Of a stretch of 37,849 bases of DNA, positions 30,840 through 36,227 are shown piece after piece. Numbering within the stretch: the first letter of the stretch is position 1; every line of letters starts with the position of its first letter. The position numbers and the translations under genes are program-made. The notes under the pieces were generated by a model. That model did no database searches and was not told where the DNA came from. It saw nothing but the letters and a program-made list of their open reading frames with translations. The stretch is from the NCBI GenBank assembly GCA_012270065.1, contig JAAXJB010000006.1, forward strand, positions 1 through 37,849. Reading direction: 5' to 3'. This stretch comes from Rubripirellula sp. (GTDB lineage Bacteria > Planctomycetota > Planctomycetia > Pirellulales > Pirellulaceae).

Positions 30840-33800
30840 TCAACTCGTTTTGAGTTGGAAATTGGTAGGTTCCAACGGACCACTCGTATTGACCTGATAA
30901 CCAATACTCACGCTCCCACTCGGTGCGACTGACCCATTCCATGACAAAGCTCGAAGACGATATCGAGTGCCCTCATGACTCACAATCTCCGCTCCCCAGA
31001 TACTGTCAATCTGATGGGGAGAGTCAAATTCGAGTTCCCAGTCATTCCAGGACTGTACTCCGTTGTTGGTAATCACGATCGATGCCACGTAGCCCGTCCC
31101 CCATTGACTTGAGACGCTCCACTCGACCTGACCGCTCGATTCCTCCGAATCATTATTCTGGATCGTTCCAACCGCAGCACTGTCAACCAGCTTTGCGTTG
31201 ACCACCTGGCTCAATGCGATCTCGAAAGTTTCGTCCGGTTCAACCGCGGTATCACCTCTGACAAGAACCTCGATCGTCTTTTCCATCTCACCAGCAAGGA
31301 AATTCAGCGTTCCTTGTGTTGGCACAAAATCTTCATCCGCAACGGCCGAGATGCCTGCAGTCGAATAGTCGACCGAAGCGAAACCACCTTCCGGGACAGC
31401 CTTTGACAATTTGACGGTAAACGTCATTTTCTCGGATCCCGAATCAGGCTCCATCATCGATACATCACTGACAGTCATTTCGATGGTGTCATCATCAGAC
31501 CCACCATTCCCTCCACTTCCTCCAGTGCCTTGTCCATTGATCAGAATGTTTCTTGGACTCGTCACCACGTTGCCGGGATTTCCGCTGAACCCGAGGGTCA
31601 CGCTCGCACCTGGCTCAACTCTTCCGTTCCAGCTCTCATTTTTTACAACGTAGTGCTGGCCTGAATGGCTAACCAGTTTTGAACTCCAGAACTGGGTCAG
31701 ATTGTGTTCCCAGTCGAATTCGACTTCCCAACCATCCCAGGCCTGATCCGTACGATTGGTCAGTTTCAATTCCCCAGTGAATCCCGATCCCCAGTCACTG
31801 ACAGTCCGATATTCAGCGGAGTTATTCGATGATCCCAAATCGTCGTTCTTGATCGTCACCGTGGCAATGCCGCTGGCAATCACAGCACCCTGTGGCTCAG
31901 AAAGCTCGACCGTCAAAATCTCATCGCCCTCCACATCCGTATCGCCTATGACCTGAATGGGAATCATCGCGGATAGACTTCCGGCTGGGATGGTCACCAT
32001 TCCCGTTTTGCCTTGGTAGTCAGCACCAGCAACGGCGGATCCATCCTTGGTGGTGTAATTCACCGTCACATCTTCACTGGCCACCTTGGACAGGGAGACA
32101 ACGACATTGGCAACGGATGTGTCAGAGTCGCCTTCATCCAGATTGACATCAGCAACGGAAAGCATGGGAGCCGATTGCCCCACATCTGCAGGCACACCGT
32201 TGACGTAGACATTGGATGGGATGGTGGTGACATTACCGGGGCTACCGCCCATTCCAATGACAACACTCTGTCCGGGACCAATGTCGCCATTCCAGAACTC
32301 GTTGTCGATGACAAAACTGCCCTCCGAGTTTTCGATCAACAACGCATTCCAGACCTGGCTGATTCCATGGGTCCAGTCAAACTCAAGCCGCCATCCTGAC
32401 CAGGCTTCATCACCACGGTTGGTCAAAGTGATCTCACCATTGAAACCACTTCCCCAATCATCGGTCGTACGGTAGGAGAAACCAGCGGGAACGACTGTCC
32501 GATCGTTATCAATGATGATTCCTTCTGCTTTTGCATCGGCCAAGTCTGCATTGACCGGATTACTCAGATTCAGCTGGAATGACTCGCGACCTTCCTCCAG
32601 CAAATCACCAATGACCGGCACATCGACCGTCTGCTCCGTCTGTCCGGCTGGGAATACCAGAGTTCCTGTGACGCTGGTGTAATCATCAGGAGCAACGGCA
32701 GAATCTGACACGGTTGTATAATCCACCGACACGTCGGCCGAAGCGGCCTCGGATAGAGTCACGGTGAAGGTCATGCTGGTTGTCCCCTCATCCCCCTCAT
32801 TGGCACTGGCATCACTGACACTCAGTGTCGGCTGCGAAGGTTCGGAATTATCATCATCCATGATCGTGAGCGTAGCCGAAGCATCACCGAGGGTCGCGTG
32901 ATTTGCATTGGCAAGGTTGACCGTGAGTAGCTCATCCGGCTCGACCAATGCATCAGGATTGATGTTGATCTGGATCGTCTTGCTGACTTCTCCCGGCATG
33001 AATTCAAGGATACCACTGGAAGCGGTGTAATCACTGTCTGCCATGGCCGTTCCATCAGCAGTCGAGTATTCCACCGTGATGGGGTGCATGGATGCAGCCG
33101 ACAGACTCACCGTAACAAGTGCAACGGTCGGTCCATCACCAGCGGCGTCTGCAAAATCGGACTGCAGGGTTTCCAATCCGTCGACCTTGTTCTGATGAAC
33201 AGTTTGCCAATCATCGGTGAGAATGCCTCCTGTATCACCCGAGTTCGGATTCCATGACCAGTAGGTCCAACTGATGCCCTGCTGGCCGGATTCAAGATCG
33301 TTCTGACCATCTCCATCGAGGTCTCCCTTGAGATATTCAATCATCGAATCAAACCACTGCTGATCACTCTGGGTTTCAAGCTTACTGCCGAATTCCCCCA
33401 AGAGAACGGGTGCGATTCCATCCCGGAACAGATAACCCCAGTTGTCATTCCAGATCTCAGGAAGATTTTCCGGGTAAGCGGGATCATTGAAGTAGGACTG
33501 TTGATAGACACTCGCAGGGTAATCATGCGCTGAGTAGACGAGACGGTTTTCGACATCCAGACGCACGGGAGCATCGCCGGCGTTGGACAGATTGCCACCC
33601 CACCAATAGGAACCTGAAGAAGCTGATTCAACGCCTTCCACAATGATCAGCAGATCCGGATTCGTTGCCAATACGGCATTTCCAGCTCGTTCGGCAGCCA
33701 GACGCCAATCATTGACCGAACCATCCCCCCATGTCGCCGGACCATGTGGTTCATTGTGCAGGTCGATTCCGACGACAGAACGACTATCGGCATACCGGTC

Positions 33801-36227
33801 TGCCAACATGGTCAGGTTTTCAATCCAGACAGATTCCGGGTACTCCGGTGAATACCACAGACCCGATTCATTCGCACTGTTGCCTGCTTCTGAGCGGTGG
33901 TGATCCAGAATCACCCGCATTCCAAGCTCGTCTGCCTGGGCAACGATTCGATCCATGATTTCCAGTCCGCTCAATCCCGCCAGATCAGGATTCTGGCTGA
34001 AATCAATTCCGTTCGGAGTACTTCCGGCTTCGAAGAGTTCGTCACTGTACGGCAACCGGATTGTGTTGAACCCCTCGGCCTTCATCTGTTGCATCATTTC
34101 GATGTAACCCCGACTCCAAAGGCCATGAGGCACAAAATTGGTTGTCTCAAAGCCGAACCAGTTCACACCTGCAAGCCGGACACTTTGTCCGTTTTCATCG
34201 ACGATCTGATTTCCCTGAGTTGCAAGATGTCCACTTGTAACGTTCCCAATTGTTCCCTCGACCACCTCAACATCCGCAATCGTGATGGAAGGCATCATTC
34301 CATGGTTCCCATGGTCATGATTTCCATGATCATGCGAGTTGCCACTGCCGGGGCGTGTCTGGTGTCCATCCGTGATCTCACCGTCCGGTGCTGCAGGTGT
34401 CAGCAACTCTGCTCGACTTACCAGCGTCAATTCGTCGACAGTAAATCCAAAGGGCACTTCCAATTGGTCTTCAACAATCTGATCGTGGTGAAACTCGATG
34501 TTGGCGGGCACAAGATCACTCAACGAAATCCCAGCCAACAAAAGACTCTGATTTGTTGGTTGAACTGAAATCAACAAACCGTCCGGTGTATCCTCCACAC
34601 TGAGGCGTTCACGAGTACCAAAGTAGAGGAAACTCAACTTGTTTGTTTCCGGATCAAAATCCGCAATTGTTTCCTGCACACCATACTCATGGGAACGAAC
34701 ATAAACAGTGTCAGACTCTCGCGGTCCGACGCCCTGTTCCCACGACACAACACCACCGATGTCCTGCCGCAAGTGTTCATTGGCGACCACACCGTAATTG
34801 TGAATGCTCAAGTCGGTAAAACTCCGATCCTTCACGACCTGATACTCAGGGTTCCAGGCCCACGGATTTACGATCGCAATTTCACCGGTTTCCAGTTTCC
34901 CGAGAATCAGGTTGTGTACAGAGATGTCACCGAAATCGAGTCGATCTGCATCCGGATTGAAATTGACGATATCGGCAGCAGCAGGATTGACTGGGAAAAC
35001 ATTGCCGTTGAGATCACCAAGTCCTGAATCCGAGTCACCCGTGGGCGGATTATCGTCGTTCGCTCCACCATCATCGCCACCACCAATCGTGAACTGCCCC
35101 AGTATCTGTGAAAACTCGAAAGGTTCCTGAGGCACACCACTGCAGGTCAGTGCAAGTGTTCCGAATGTTTCACAGGGAGCATCACGATTGGCCGACCACG
35201 CTGACAGAAAACCCATTCCAACTTCATCCGCAAAATCAAGAAGTCGTTCAGCGTCTTCGACATAGAAACGTTCTGACCGAACGTCATTCTGGCCGATCAT
35301 CGGAGTCACCCCCACTAAACTCCACAACTCGGCATCGGTCACTGGCACACCTGCGGTGTCGTAGGCGTCTCTCATTTGAGCGAACAGACTCTCTGCGGCC
35401 TCAATGGCATAATCACCCATCTGGCCTTCCGGATTGGGAGCGGCTGAATCACCATAATTCATCGCCATGATATTGACTCCACCAATATCAACACCATGAC
35501 TCAACGCAGACTCCACGACATACAAACCATCACTGGTCAATCCACTGGGCAATACTGGCAGAGTGAACCAGACTTCCAGAGGTCTGCCATCAATGGCTGC
35601 CTGATCCTGAAGATTCCTGATGGCCTGTGAACGCCGGTCGATGGATGCTTCATCGGTCACCCAATATCCCTCAACGTCAAAATCAATCCAGGTCAGTTCG
35701 TACTGATCAATGACATCCTGATAAGCATCAGTCAAACCAGCAACATCAGGGATAGCTGCTGCCAGTGGTGTTCCCGCTGCACCGCCAAACGACAGCAGCA
35801 CTTCTCCACCCAATTCACGCAAGGCGTCAATCTCGTCGCCACGGTAATCAGAATCAACACTGTAGTAACCACCCCAACTCGGCTCACTCGTCGCAGGATC
35901 AGCAACAACGAATGCAAGCGAGACATATTTGACACCTTCTTCCCGGGCCAACTCAACAAAGTCAAACGGTGGCCAAAGAGTTGAATCAACGTAGGGCGCA
36001 TAAACCTGATCCGGTATATCAGCCCGCATGTCTGAACCATGGTGAGAACTGCTAGCCGCAGCGTTGAATCCAGAAATCAAGTCGGACGAAGCCTCCATAC
36101 CACTGGAGGCAGACATTGTGATTCGTTGTTCGAGTGATTCGAGTTGAACGCGGCGGCGCGCACGACGCAAGCGGCGCGTATGAGTCTTACGACGGGAGCC
36201 TAATAGCTCACGAAAGCAGATTTGCAT
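30840..36227 (-). CDS. Giant secreted multidomain glycoside hydrolase: GH18-like + GH5 + Calx-beta + CBM2
   Basis: The 1795-residue protein has the following order. Basic N-terminus with RRRVQLESLEQRIT, like planctomycete extracellular proteins. GH18 chitinase-like domain (about 72-378) with WIDFDVE (Asp182, Asp184, Glu186). An unnamed two-part beta domain (about 415-600). A His-rich linker HDHGNHDHGNHG (about 632-643). A Calx-beta beginning (646-664), then a GH5 cellulase-like domain (about 667-1022; DLHNEPHG with Glu826 and LLGEFG with Glu945 as probable acid/base and nucleophile), then the rest of that Calx-beta (about 1034-1126). Calx-beta (1133-1243), CBM2 (1248-1350), Calx-beta (1356-1465), CBM2 (1468-1568), Calx-beta (1578-1695) and CBM2 (1698-1795) follow. 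It probably degrades cellulose or chitin outside the cell. The ATG at 36227 has AGGTCA upstream. Confidence 0.92.
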   Translation of the reverse strand: MQICFRELLGSRRKTHTRRLRRARRRVQLESLEQRITMSASSGMEASSDLISGFNAAASSSHHGSDMRADIPDQVYAPYVDSTLWPPFDFVELAREEGVKYVSLAFVVADPATSEPSWGGYYSVDSDYRGDEIDALRELGGEVLLSFGGAAGTPLAAAIPDVAGLTDAYQDVIDQYELTWIDFDVEGYWVTDEASIDRRSQAIRNLQDQAAIDGRPLEVWFTLPVLPSGLTSDGLYVVESALSHGVDIGGVNIMAMNYGDSAAPNPEGQMGDYAIEAAESLFAQMRDAYDTAGVPVTDAELWSLVGVTPMIGQNDVRSERFYVEDAERLLDFADEVGMGFLSAWSANRDAPCETFGTLALTCSGVPQEPFEFSQILGQFTIGGGDDGGANDDNPPTGDSDSGLGDLNGNVFPVNPAAADIVNFNPDADRLDFGDISVHNLILGKLETGEIAIVNPWAWNPEYQVVKDRSFTDLSIHNYGVVANEHLRQDIGGVVSWEQGVGPRESDTVYVRSHEYGVQETIADFDPETNKLSFLYFGTRERLSVEDTPDGLLISVQPTNQSLLLAGISLSDLVPANIEFHHDQIVEDQLEVPFGFTVDELTLVSRAELLTPAAPDGEITDGHQTRPGSGNSHDHGNHDHGNHGMMPSITIADVEVVEGTIGNVTSGHLATQGNQIVDENGQSVRLAGVNWFGFETTNFVPHGLWSRGYIEMMQQMKAEGFNTIRLPYSDELFEAGSTPNGIDFSQNPDLAGLSGLEIMDRIVAQADELGMRVILDHHRSEAGNSANESGLWYSPEYPESVWIENLTMLADRYADSRSVVGIDLHNEPHGPATWGDGSVNDWRLAAERAGNAVLATNPDLLIIVEGVESASSGSYWWGGNLSNAGDAPVRLDVENRLVYSAHDYPASVYQQSYFNDPAYPENLPEIWNDNWGYLFRDGIAPVLLGEFGSKLETQSDQQWFDSMIEYLKGDLDGDGQNDLESGQQGISWTYWSWNPNSGDTGGILTDDWQTVHQNKVDGLETLQSDFADAAGDGPTVALVTVSLSAASMHPITVEYSTADGTAMADSDYTASSGILEFMPGEVSKTIQININPDALVEPDELLTVNLANANHATLGDASATLTIMDDDNSEPSQPTLSVSDASANEGDEGTTSMTFTVTLSEAASADVSVDYTTVSDSAVAPDDYTSVTGTLVFPAGQTEQTVDVPVIGDLLEEGRESFQLNLSNPVNADLADAKAEGIIIDNDRTVVPAGFSYRTTDDWGSGFNGEITLTNRGDEAWSGWRLEFDWTHGISQVWNALLIENSEGSFVIDNEFWNGDIGPGQSVVIGMGGSPGNVTTIPSNVYVNGVPADVGQSAPMLSVADVNLDEGDSDTSVANVVVSLSKVASEDVTVNYTTKDGSAVAGADYQGKTGMVTIPAGSLSAMIPIQVIGDTDVEGDEILTVELSEPQGAVIASGIATVTIKNDDLGSSNNSAEYRTVSDWGSGFTGELKLTNRTDQAWDGWEVEFDWEHNLTQFWSSKLVSHSGQHYVVKNESWNGRVEPGASVTLGFSGNPGNVVTSPRNILINGQGTGGSGGNGGSDDDTIEMTVSDVSMMEPDSGSEKMTFTVKLSKAVPEGGFASVDYSTAGISAVADEDFVPTQGTLNFLAGEMEKTIEVLVRGDTAVEPDETFEIALSQVVNAKLVDSAAVGTIQNNDSEESSGQVEWSVSSQWGTGYVASIVITNNGVQSWNDWELEFDSPHQIDSIWGAEIVSHEGTRYRLRALSWNGSVAPSGSVSIGYQVNTSGPLEPTNFQLKTS

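Follow-up and report, generated by a model that had tools for sequence, protein, structure and literature searches.

A conserved insertion of a GH5 domain into a Calx-beta domain, with a putative composite calcium site

Results

A multidomain protein with a divided Calx-beta domain

The window analysed here (the whole stretch of DNA, 37,849 nucleotides) contains an open reading frame at 30840..36227 on the minus strand, which encodes a 1795-aa multidomain protein. From its N-terminus this protein comprises a chitinase-like part, a GH5 domain lying within a Calx-beta domain, and then further Calx-beta and CBM2 domains; Pfam returned four Calx-beta matches, three CBM_2 matches and one Cellulase match. 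The chitinase-like part (residues 60-400; 35028-36050, minus strand) was recognised by its PDB sequence matches to solved chitinases (best 9buf, E=7.4e-66; 2dsk, E=3.6e-41), while over the same residues Pfam gave two weak unrelated matches only. We take this domain to be probably a member of GH18. As a chitinase-like domain and a GH5 domain share the same chain, the protein may carry two glycosidases. For residues 401-640 (window 34308-35027, minus strand) no convincing Pfam match was obtained (best E 0.083).

The GH5 catalytic domain spans residues 668-1020 (33168..34226, minus strand). Residues 676-996 match PF00150 over the entire profile (1-272 of 272) with 171.7 bits, against a curated cut-off of 23.5, and the closest PDB chains by sequence are Acidothermus E1 (1ece, E=1.4e-131, query residues 27-386) and the metagenomic endoglucanase CelE2 (8fc0, E=1.9e-129). 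Two glutamates, at query positions 187 and 306 (E826 and E945), are invariant across 63 aligned rows; we take E826 to be the probable acid/base and E945 the probable nucleophile of the domain. Judged by its sequence, the inserted enzyme is a GH5 endoglucanase, kin of E1 and CelE2, with cellulose hydrolysis as its predicted activity.

The two parts of the host domain lie on either side of this enzyme. Directly ahead of GH5 is a short N-terminal piece, residues 646-664, with the sequence PSITIADVEVVEGTIGNVT (34236..34292, minus strand), which comprises strand A/A' and the start of the A-B loop and was assigned from AlphaFold2 strands and a profile join. Behind GH5 lies the C-terminal piece, residues 1034-1126 (32850..33128, minus strand), corresponding to strands B-G and assigned from PF03160, predicted strands and ligand columns. 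On its own this C half matches PF03160 with 69.4 bits (curated cut-off 27), over profile positions 22-119. The host Calx-beta domain is therefore interrupted in sequence by 369 residues, and a neighbouring intact Calx-beta domain (32505..32825, minus strand) has both halves contiguous. A first-pass annotation of this DNA had proposed exactly such a domain within a domain: both segments were recovered at the residues it gave, with a complete GH5 domain between them according to the reading frame and Pfam, and its comparison with the intact neighbour holds. Its interval for the arrangement, 33100-34300, takes in the N piece and GH5 but misses nearly the whole C half (32850-33128).

Structure prediction orders the N piece only alongside the C half

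Residues 640-1130 were modelled with AlphaFold2 from 63 sequences (62 of the 74 listed loci rows, plus the window), giving a mean pLDDT of 90.4. With the C half present, strands were predicted at 647-650 and 653-656, and the ten-residue blocks covering them had pLDDT values of 79 and 86. When the C half was cut off and the same sequences were used, the N piece fell to 32 and 31 and formed no strand, and the GH5 elements were nearly unchanged, which indicates that in the prediction the N piece is ordered by the C half and not by GH5. The C half itself was modelled as six strands, the last of them broken in two, with block pLDDT values of 74-98. Structure prediction had been put forward in the first-pass annotation as the way to check its proposal; residues 646-664 form strands only alongside the C half, and the outcome it had named as refuting, with 646-664 packed elsewhere and 1034-1126 making up a whole fold by itself, was not seen. 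From this model we infer that strand A, within 646-657, pairs inside the sandwich formed by 1034-1126.

We found no experimental structure of an intact GH5-Calx-beta unit. The CelE2 construct in 8fc0 carries the strand-A segment without a C half. Its chain C contains 364 of 381 residues and aligns from residue 18 onwards, so that residues 1-17 appear to be unmodelled. This points the same way as the prediction, in agreement with ordering of the strand by the C half. A fold comparison listed GH5-type chains only, and the absence of Calx-beta chains from it is uninformative.

Joining the two pieces raises the score of a Calx-beta profile

The same annotation had also called for profile searches with the GH5 segment deleted, and here the outcome depended on the profile. 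With Pfam PF03160 the join made no difference (69.4 v 69.4 bits). However, even the intact neighbour is matched by PF03160 only from profile position 16 onwards, making the Pfam join test uninformative, and a purpose-built profile was therefore used, with which the join gave a gain. This profile was made from 159 intact Calx-beta domains of the fetched loci, with no split row among them; L009, which is the C half of a split domain plus linker, was removed from the training domains before the build. The rows tested were the 76 that remain of 82 distinct aligned rows once L075, L081 and L112 (contig ends) and L084, L085 and L086 (without Calx-beta) are left aside.

With the N piece joined to the C half, the score rose in 76/76 distinct homologues, by a mean of 9.7 bits (range 1.4-19.7), compared with mean changes of -0.6 bits for GH5 pieces and 0.0 bits for shuffles. 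The true N piece outscored all 40 controls in 70/76 rows. The joined alignment began at profile position 1 in 65/76 rows, at position 2 or 3 in nine, and at position 10 or 11 in two, where strand A was left unaligned and added nothing. For the window row the score rose from 113.7 bits (C half alone) to 125.0 with the strand, a gain of 11.3 against 9.7 bits for the best control, which is a narrow margin for a single row. In intact domains the first 17 residues contribute more to the score (mean 23.2 bits, n=159), a value obtained with a different cut and on the training set itself; the gain in split rows is less than half of this.

The two pieces are present and absent together

A scan of one genome per species found relatives in Planctomycetota, Pseudomonadota (Alphaproteobacteria) and Actinomycetota, and most of the best 80 of 138 relatives match through both Calx-beta pieces. 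Loci from the genome searches (the best 30 at most per search) and two further stretches gave 139 distinct GH5 rows. With L075 (contig end), L081, L112, L121 and L122 set aside, 134 remained, 97 with a C half and 37 without. Strand A was scored strictly and without gaps in the 45 residues ahead of GH5, with a threshold of 8 bits. Among these fetched loci, strand A reached at least 8 bits in 83/97 C-half-positive rows versus 0/37 C-half-negative rows; the 37 negatives include one front too short to score and the partly masked L085, and 26 of these rows cluster together in the tree. Twelve of the 14/97 positive rows below threshold come from one locus sample, and in the 14 the strand and mostly the glutamate are visible by eye, with the E seemingly absent, again by eye, from L164 and L170. 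A complete Calx-beta domain directly after GH5 was seen in 0/97 C-half-positive rows among the fetched loci.

A GH5-only tree of 135 rows, made with a quick method, requires five changes of the trait. Three rows, L084-L086, have GH5 domains 71-72% identical to that of the window and sit on starred branches inside the Calx-bearing relatives, yet lack both pieces; their flanks consist of other linkers on both sides, partly proline-rich, and L085 is partly masked. These rows represent either an apparent joint loss of both pieces or a transplanted bare GH5. Likewise L174 and L175, paralogues in an Azospirillum genome, are without both pieces and stand beside L102 and L115 on the tree. Across 200 random tree pairings the traits agreed, on average, in 4.1 of 5 independent pairs and were opposite in none; with five pairs, however, a level of 0.05 is out of reach for a sign test.

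The genome of L115 (G678, Azospirillum soli) holds four GH5 copies of this family, of which two match both pieces and two (L174, L175) lack them.

We also surveyed the Calx-beta matches themselves. In the first two reading-frame sets, redundant loci included, there were 370: 235 with a contiguous strand A, 132 without, and 3 outside the length filter. Of the 132, 113 lie behind a GH5 with an upstream strand and 15 behind a GH5 whose upstream strand is below threshold; the 4 others are one further GH5 row and 3 domains that are divergent but contiguous by eye. Thirty further loci contributed 85 matches (65 contiguous, 16 not, 4 outside the filter), the 16 being made up of 6 behind GH5, 2 at a locus edge and 8 divergent but contiguous by eye. 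No other enzyme was found in the A-B loop among these 370 + 85 matches, a sample of Planctomycetota and some relatives taken from the best match downwards.

Covariation was calculated from 92 rows (effective 52) with background correction, leaving out five ligand-loss rows. The top pairs involving strand A had their partner in the C half in 7/10, 13/20 and 18/40 cases, where 2.4, 4.9 and 9.7 were expected. Covariation between strand A and the C half thus appears enriched in the alignment, an enrichment that is open to shared ancestry.

A putative calcium site on both sides of the insertion

In the Calx-beta domain CBD1 of the exchanger NCX1, strands A and B are joined by a short loop. In the split domain the enzyme is inserted after a conserved glutamate of strand A, E657, and ahead of strand B. 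This Glu657, at the end of strand A (34257..34259, minus strand), is a probable Ca2+ ligand: the residue is E in 71/76 split rows and in 159/159 intact training domains, these having been chosen for a full-length match. It appears to stand at the place of NCX1 E385, in a strand that no alignment reached. In NCX1 CBD1, according to the part of PMC3386913 available, Ca3 is coordinated by E385, D447, I449, E451, D498 and D500, and E385 also touches further Ca2+ sites.

In the C half, D1066, D1092, E1096, E1099 and D1124-D1126 align with NCX1 D421, D447, E451, E454 and D498-D500 (residues counted along the alignment), and the residue letters at the aligned NCX1 positions agree with the ligands named in the available part of PMC3386913. 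All of these ligand-type residues, from E657 to D1124-D1126, occur in the window and are for the most part conserved, but the position of NCX1 D446 is P1091 in the alignment, so that the NCX1 ligand set is incomplete here. With ligand-type residues on both sides of the insertion, the enzyme would be inserted at the presumed calcium pole of its host. By analogy with NCX1, a composite Ca2+ site is probable, with E657 contributed from before the enzyme and the remaining putative ligands from after it.

Loss of these residues is correlated. In the 71 rows with E657, 3 or 4 of positions 1066, 1096, 1099 and 1124 are acidic, whereas the five rows that have lost E657 (L073, L076, L080, L083 and L094) have no acidic residue at any of the four, though all five retain D1092. 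These five rows form one supported planctomycete clade, in which the nested arrangement is retained. As the correlated loss lies mainly in this one clade, it may be a single event. Since E657 and all four acidic positions are replaced, the host domain of this clade, to judge from its residues, probably binds no calcium.

The linkers suggest a tether and not a rigid joint

The linkers between the enzyme and its host are about half Gly/Ser/Thr, and their length varies across the 76 homologues, from 7 to 16 residues for the N-side linker and from 11 to 27 for the C-side one. Conservation is low in the C-side linker, in contrast to the N piece with its maintained strand pattern and E657; at model residues 387-391 this linker has pLDDT values under 50. 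The pTM was 0.78 for the two-domain piece versus 0.88 for the GH5 piece. The first-pass annotation had the enzyme rigidly fixed to the scaffold, and this part of it is not borne out: Gly/Ser/Thr-rich linkers of variable length and the low C-side pLDDT favour a short tether at two points over a rigid joint.

Discussion

Structure prediction, the profile join, the co-presence of both pieces and the kept strand-A glutamate together identify the split Calx-beta domain as a conserved domain insertion, present in Planctomycetota, Alphaproteobacteria and Actinomycetota. The nesting put forward from the sequence is thus backed by a structure prediction with its control, the profile join, joint presence and absence, and covariation. 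Our overall reading, to which we assign a probability of roughly nine in ten, is that GH5 sits in the A-B loop of the Calx-beta beta-sandwich, on flexible tethers and with a putative Ca2+ clasp.

A simpler layout would have the domains in a row, with the N piece as an unrelated linker or relic and a Calx-beta domain after GH5 that either goes without strand A or uses the linker in its place. The C-half match alone does start at profile position 9-20, with a weak alignment of the linker over part of the A-B region, and one split C half together with its linker had at first passed as a complete domain during training selection; Pfam and, in the part available, the Azospirillum paper (PMC3245306) also list GH5 and Calx-beta one after the other. 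Against such a row, the N piece becomes ordered in AlphaFold2 only when the C half is present and its joining raises the purpose-built profile score. Moreover, the C linker, at 11-27 residues, is poorly conserved compared with an N piece that retains its strand pattern and E657, and this N piece occurs in 0/37 GH5 rows without the C half. We regard the row arrangement as very unlikely.

Less probable again, and in our view barely credible, is an exchange of strands, in which the N piece would complete another Calx-beta domain of the same chain or of another molecule and the C half would take its strand from elsewhere. Swapping is possible in principle, as three more Calx-beta domains lie in the chain, but strand A is already ordered in the model of residues 640-1130 by themselves, and no other domain with a matching missing strand was found among the 370 Calx-beta matches.

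With GH5 nested in the A-B loop, the host sandwich would be completed in space, taking strand A from before GH5 and strands B-G from after it. By analogy with NCX1 CBD1, E657 would bind Ca2+ together with D1066, D1092, E1096, E1099 and D1124-D1126, and the bound ion could act as a clasp across strand A and the C half, pinning the two ends of the enzyme together. GH5, which shares its chain with the CBM2 and further Calx-beta domains, would then hang from the scaffold as a loop, held by two tethers that are short and flexible. The likely effect would be to protect the ends of the enzyme and to tether it at two points close to carbohydrate-binding modules, with no rigid joint. A more tentative suggestion, which we think somewhat more apt to be wrong than right, is that the clasp is operated by calcium: external calcium would close the host domain and so control the stability of the enzyme or its placing relative to CBM2, and one planctomycete clade would have lost the site.

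If the nested arrangement is true, truncation at the usual domain boundary yields constructs with an orphan strand or with a host domain that lacks its strand, and the behaviour of truncated enzymes, for example the catalytic piece of CelE2, may be affected. The Calx-beta A-B loop would be a naturally occurring site at which an enzyme can be mounted by two points, perhaps in a calcium-dependent manner, and the clade with lost ligand residues would provide a natural control. In this arrangement a whole TIM-barrel cellulase would lie inside a Calx-beta sandwich in three phyla, where the searchable open texts give only GH5 and Calx-beta in a row. We found no description of a split Calx-beta domain in GH5-Calx-beta enzymes in the open texts, including the available parts of PMC12120621, PMC6626019, PMC3245306 and PMC3386913; the main CelE2 paper lies outside these texts and may say so.

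The closest known system is CelE2 (8fc0), whose paper, going by its title as given in the reference list of PMC12120621, names GH5 and Calx-beta (Pimentel et al. 2023, Enzyme Microb Technol 165:110206). This metagenomic endoglucanase belongs to the same GH5 family at about 50% identity and its crystallised chain starts with a strand-A-type segment, but the solved chain is without the C half. Acidothermus E1 (1ece) has the same GH5 catalytic fold; unlike the present protein, its solved catalytic chain begins at the end of the strand-A segment and lacks any Calx-beta part. The Azospirillum cellulases, for which GH_5-CalX-beta was called a 'unique domain architecture' (PMC3245306), have the same two domains, and both pieces are found in rows L102 and L115 of our alignment, although the available part of that paper writes the order as GH_5 - CalX-beta without mention of an insertion. 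NCX1 CBD1 (2dpk, 8sgi and others) is of the same host family, and its strand B 'TVAL' and ligand loops align with the split domain, but it is the regulatory domain of a transporter and has no enzyme inserted. Domain insertion as such is of a known kind; what is probably new is an insertion with GH5 and Calx-beta as the two partners and, with it, the probable composite calcium site.
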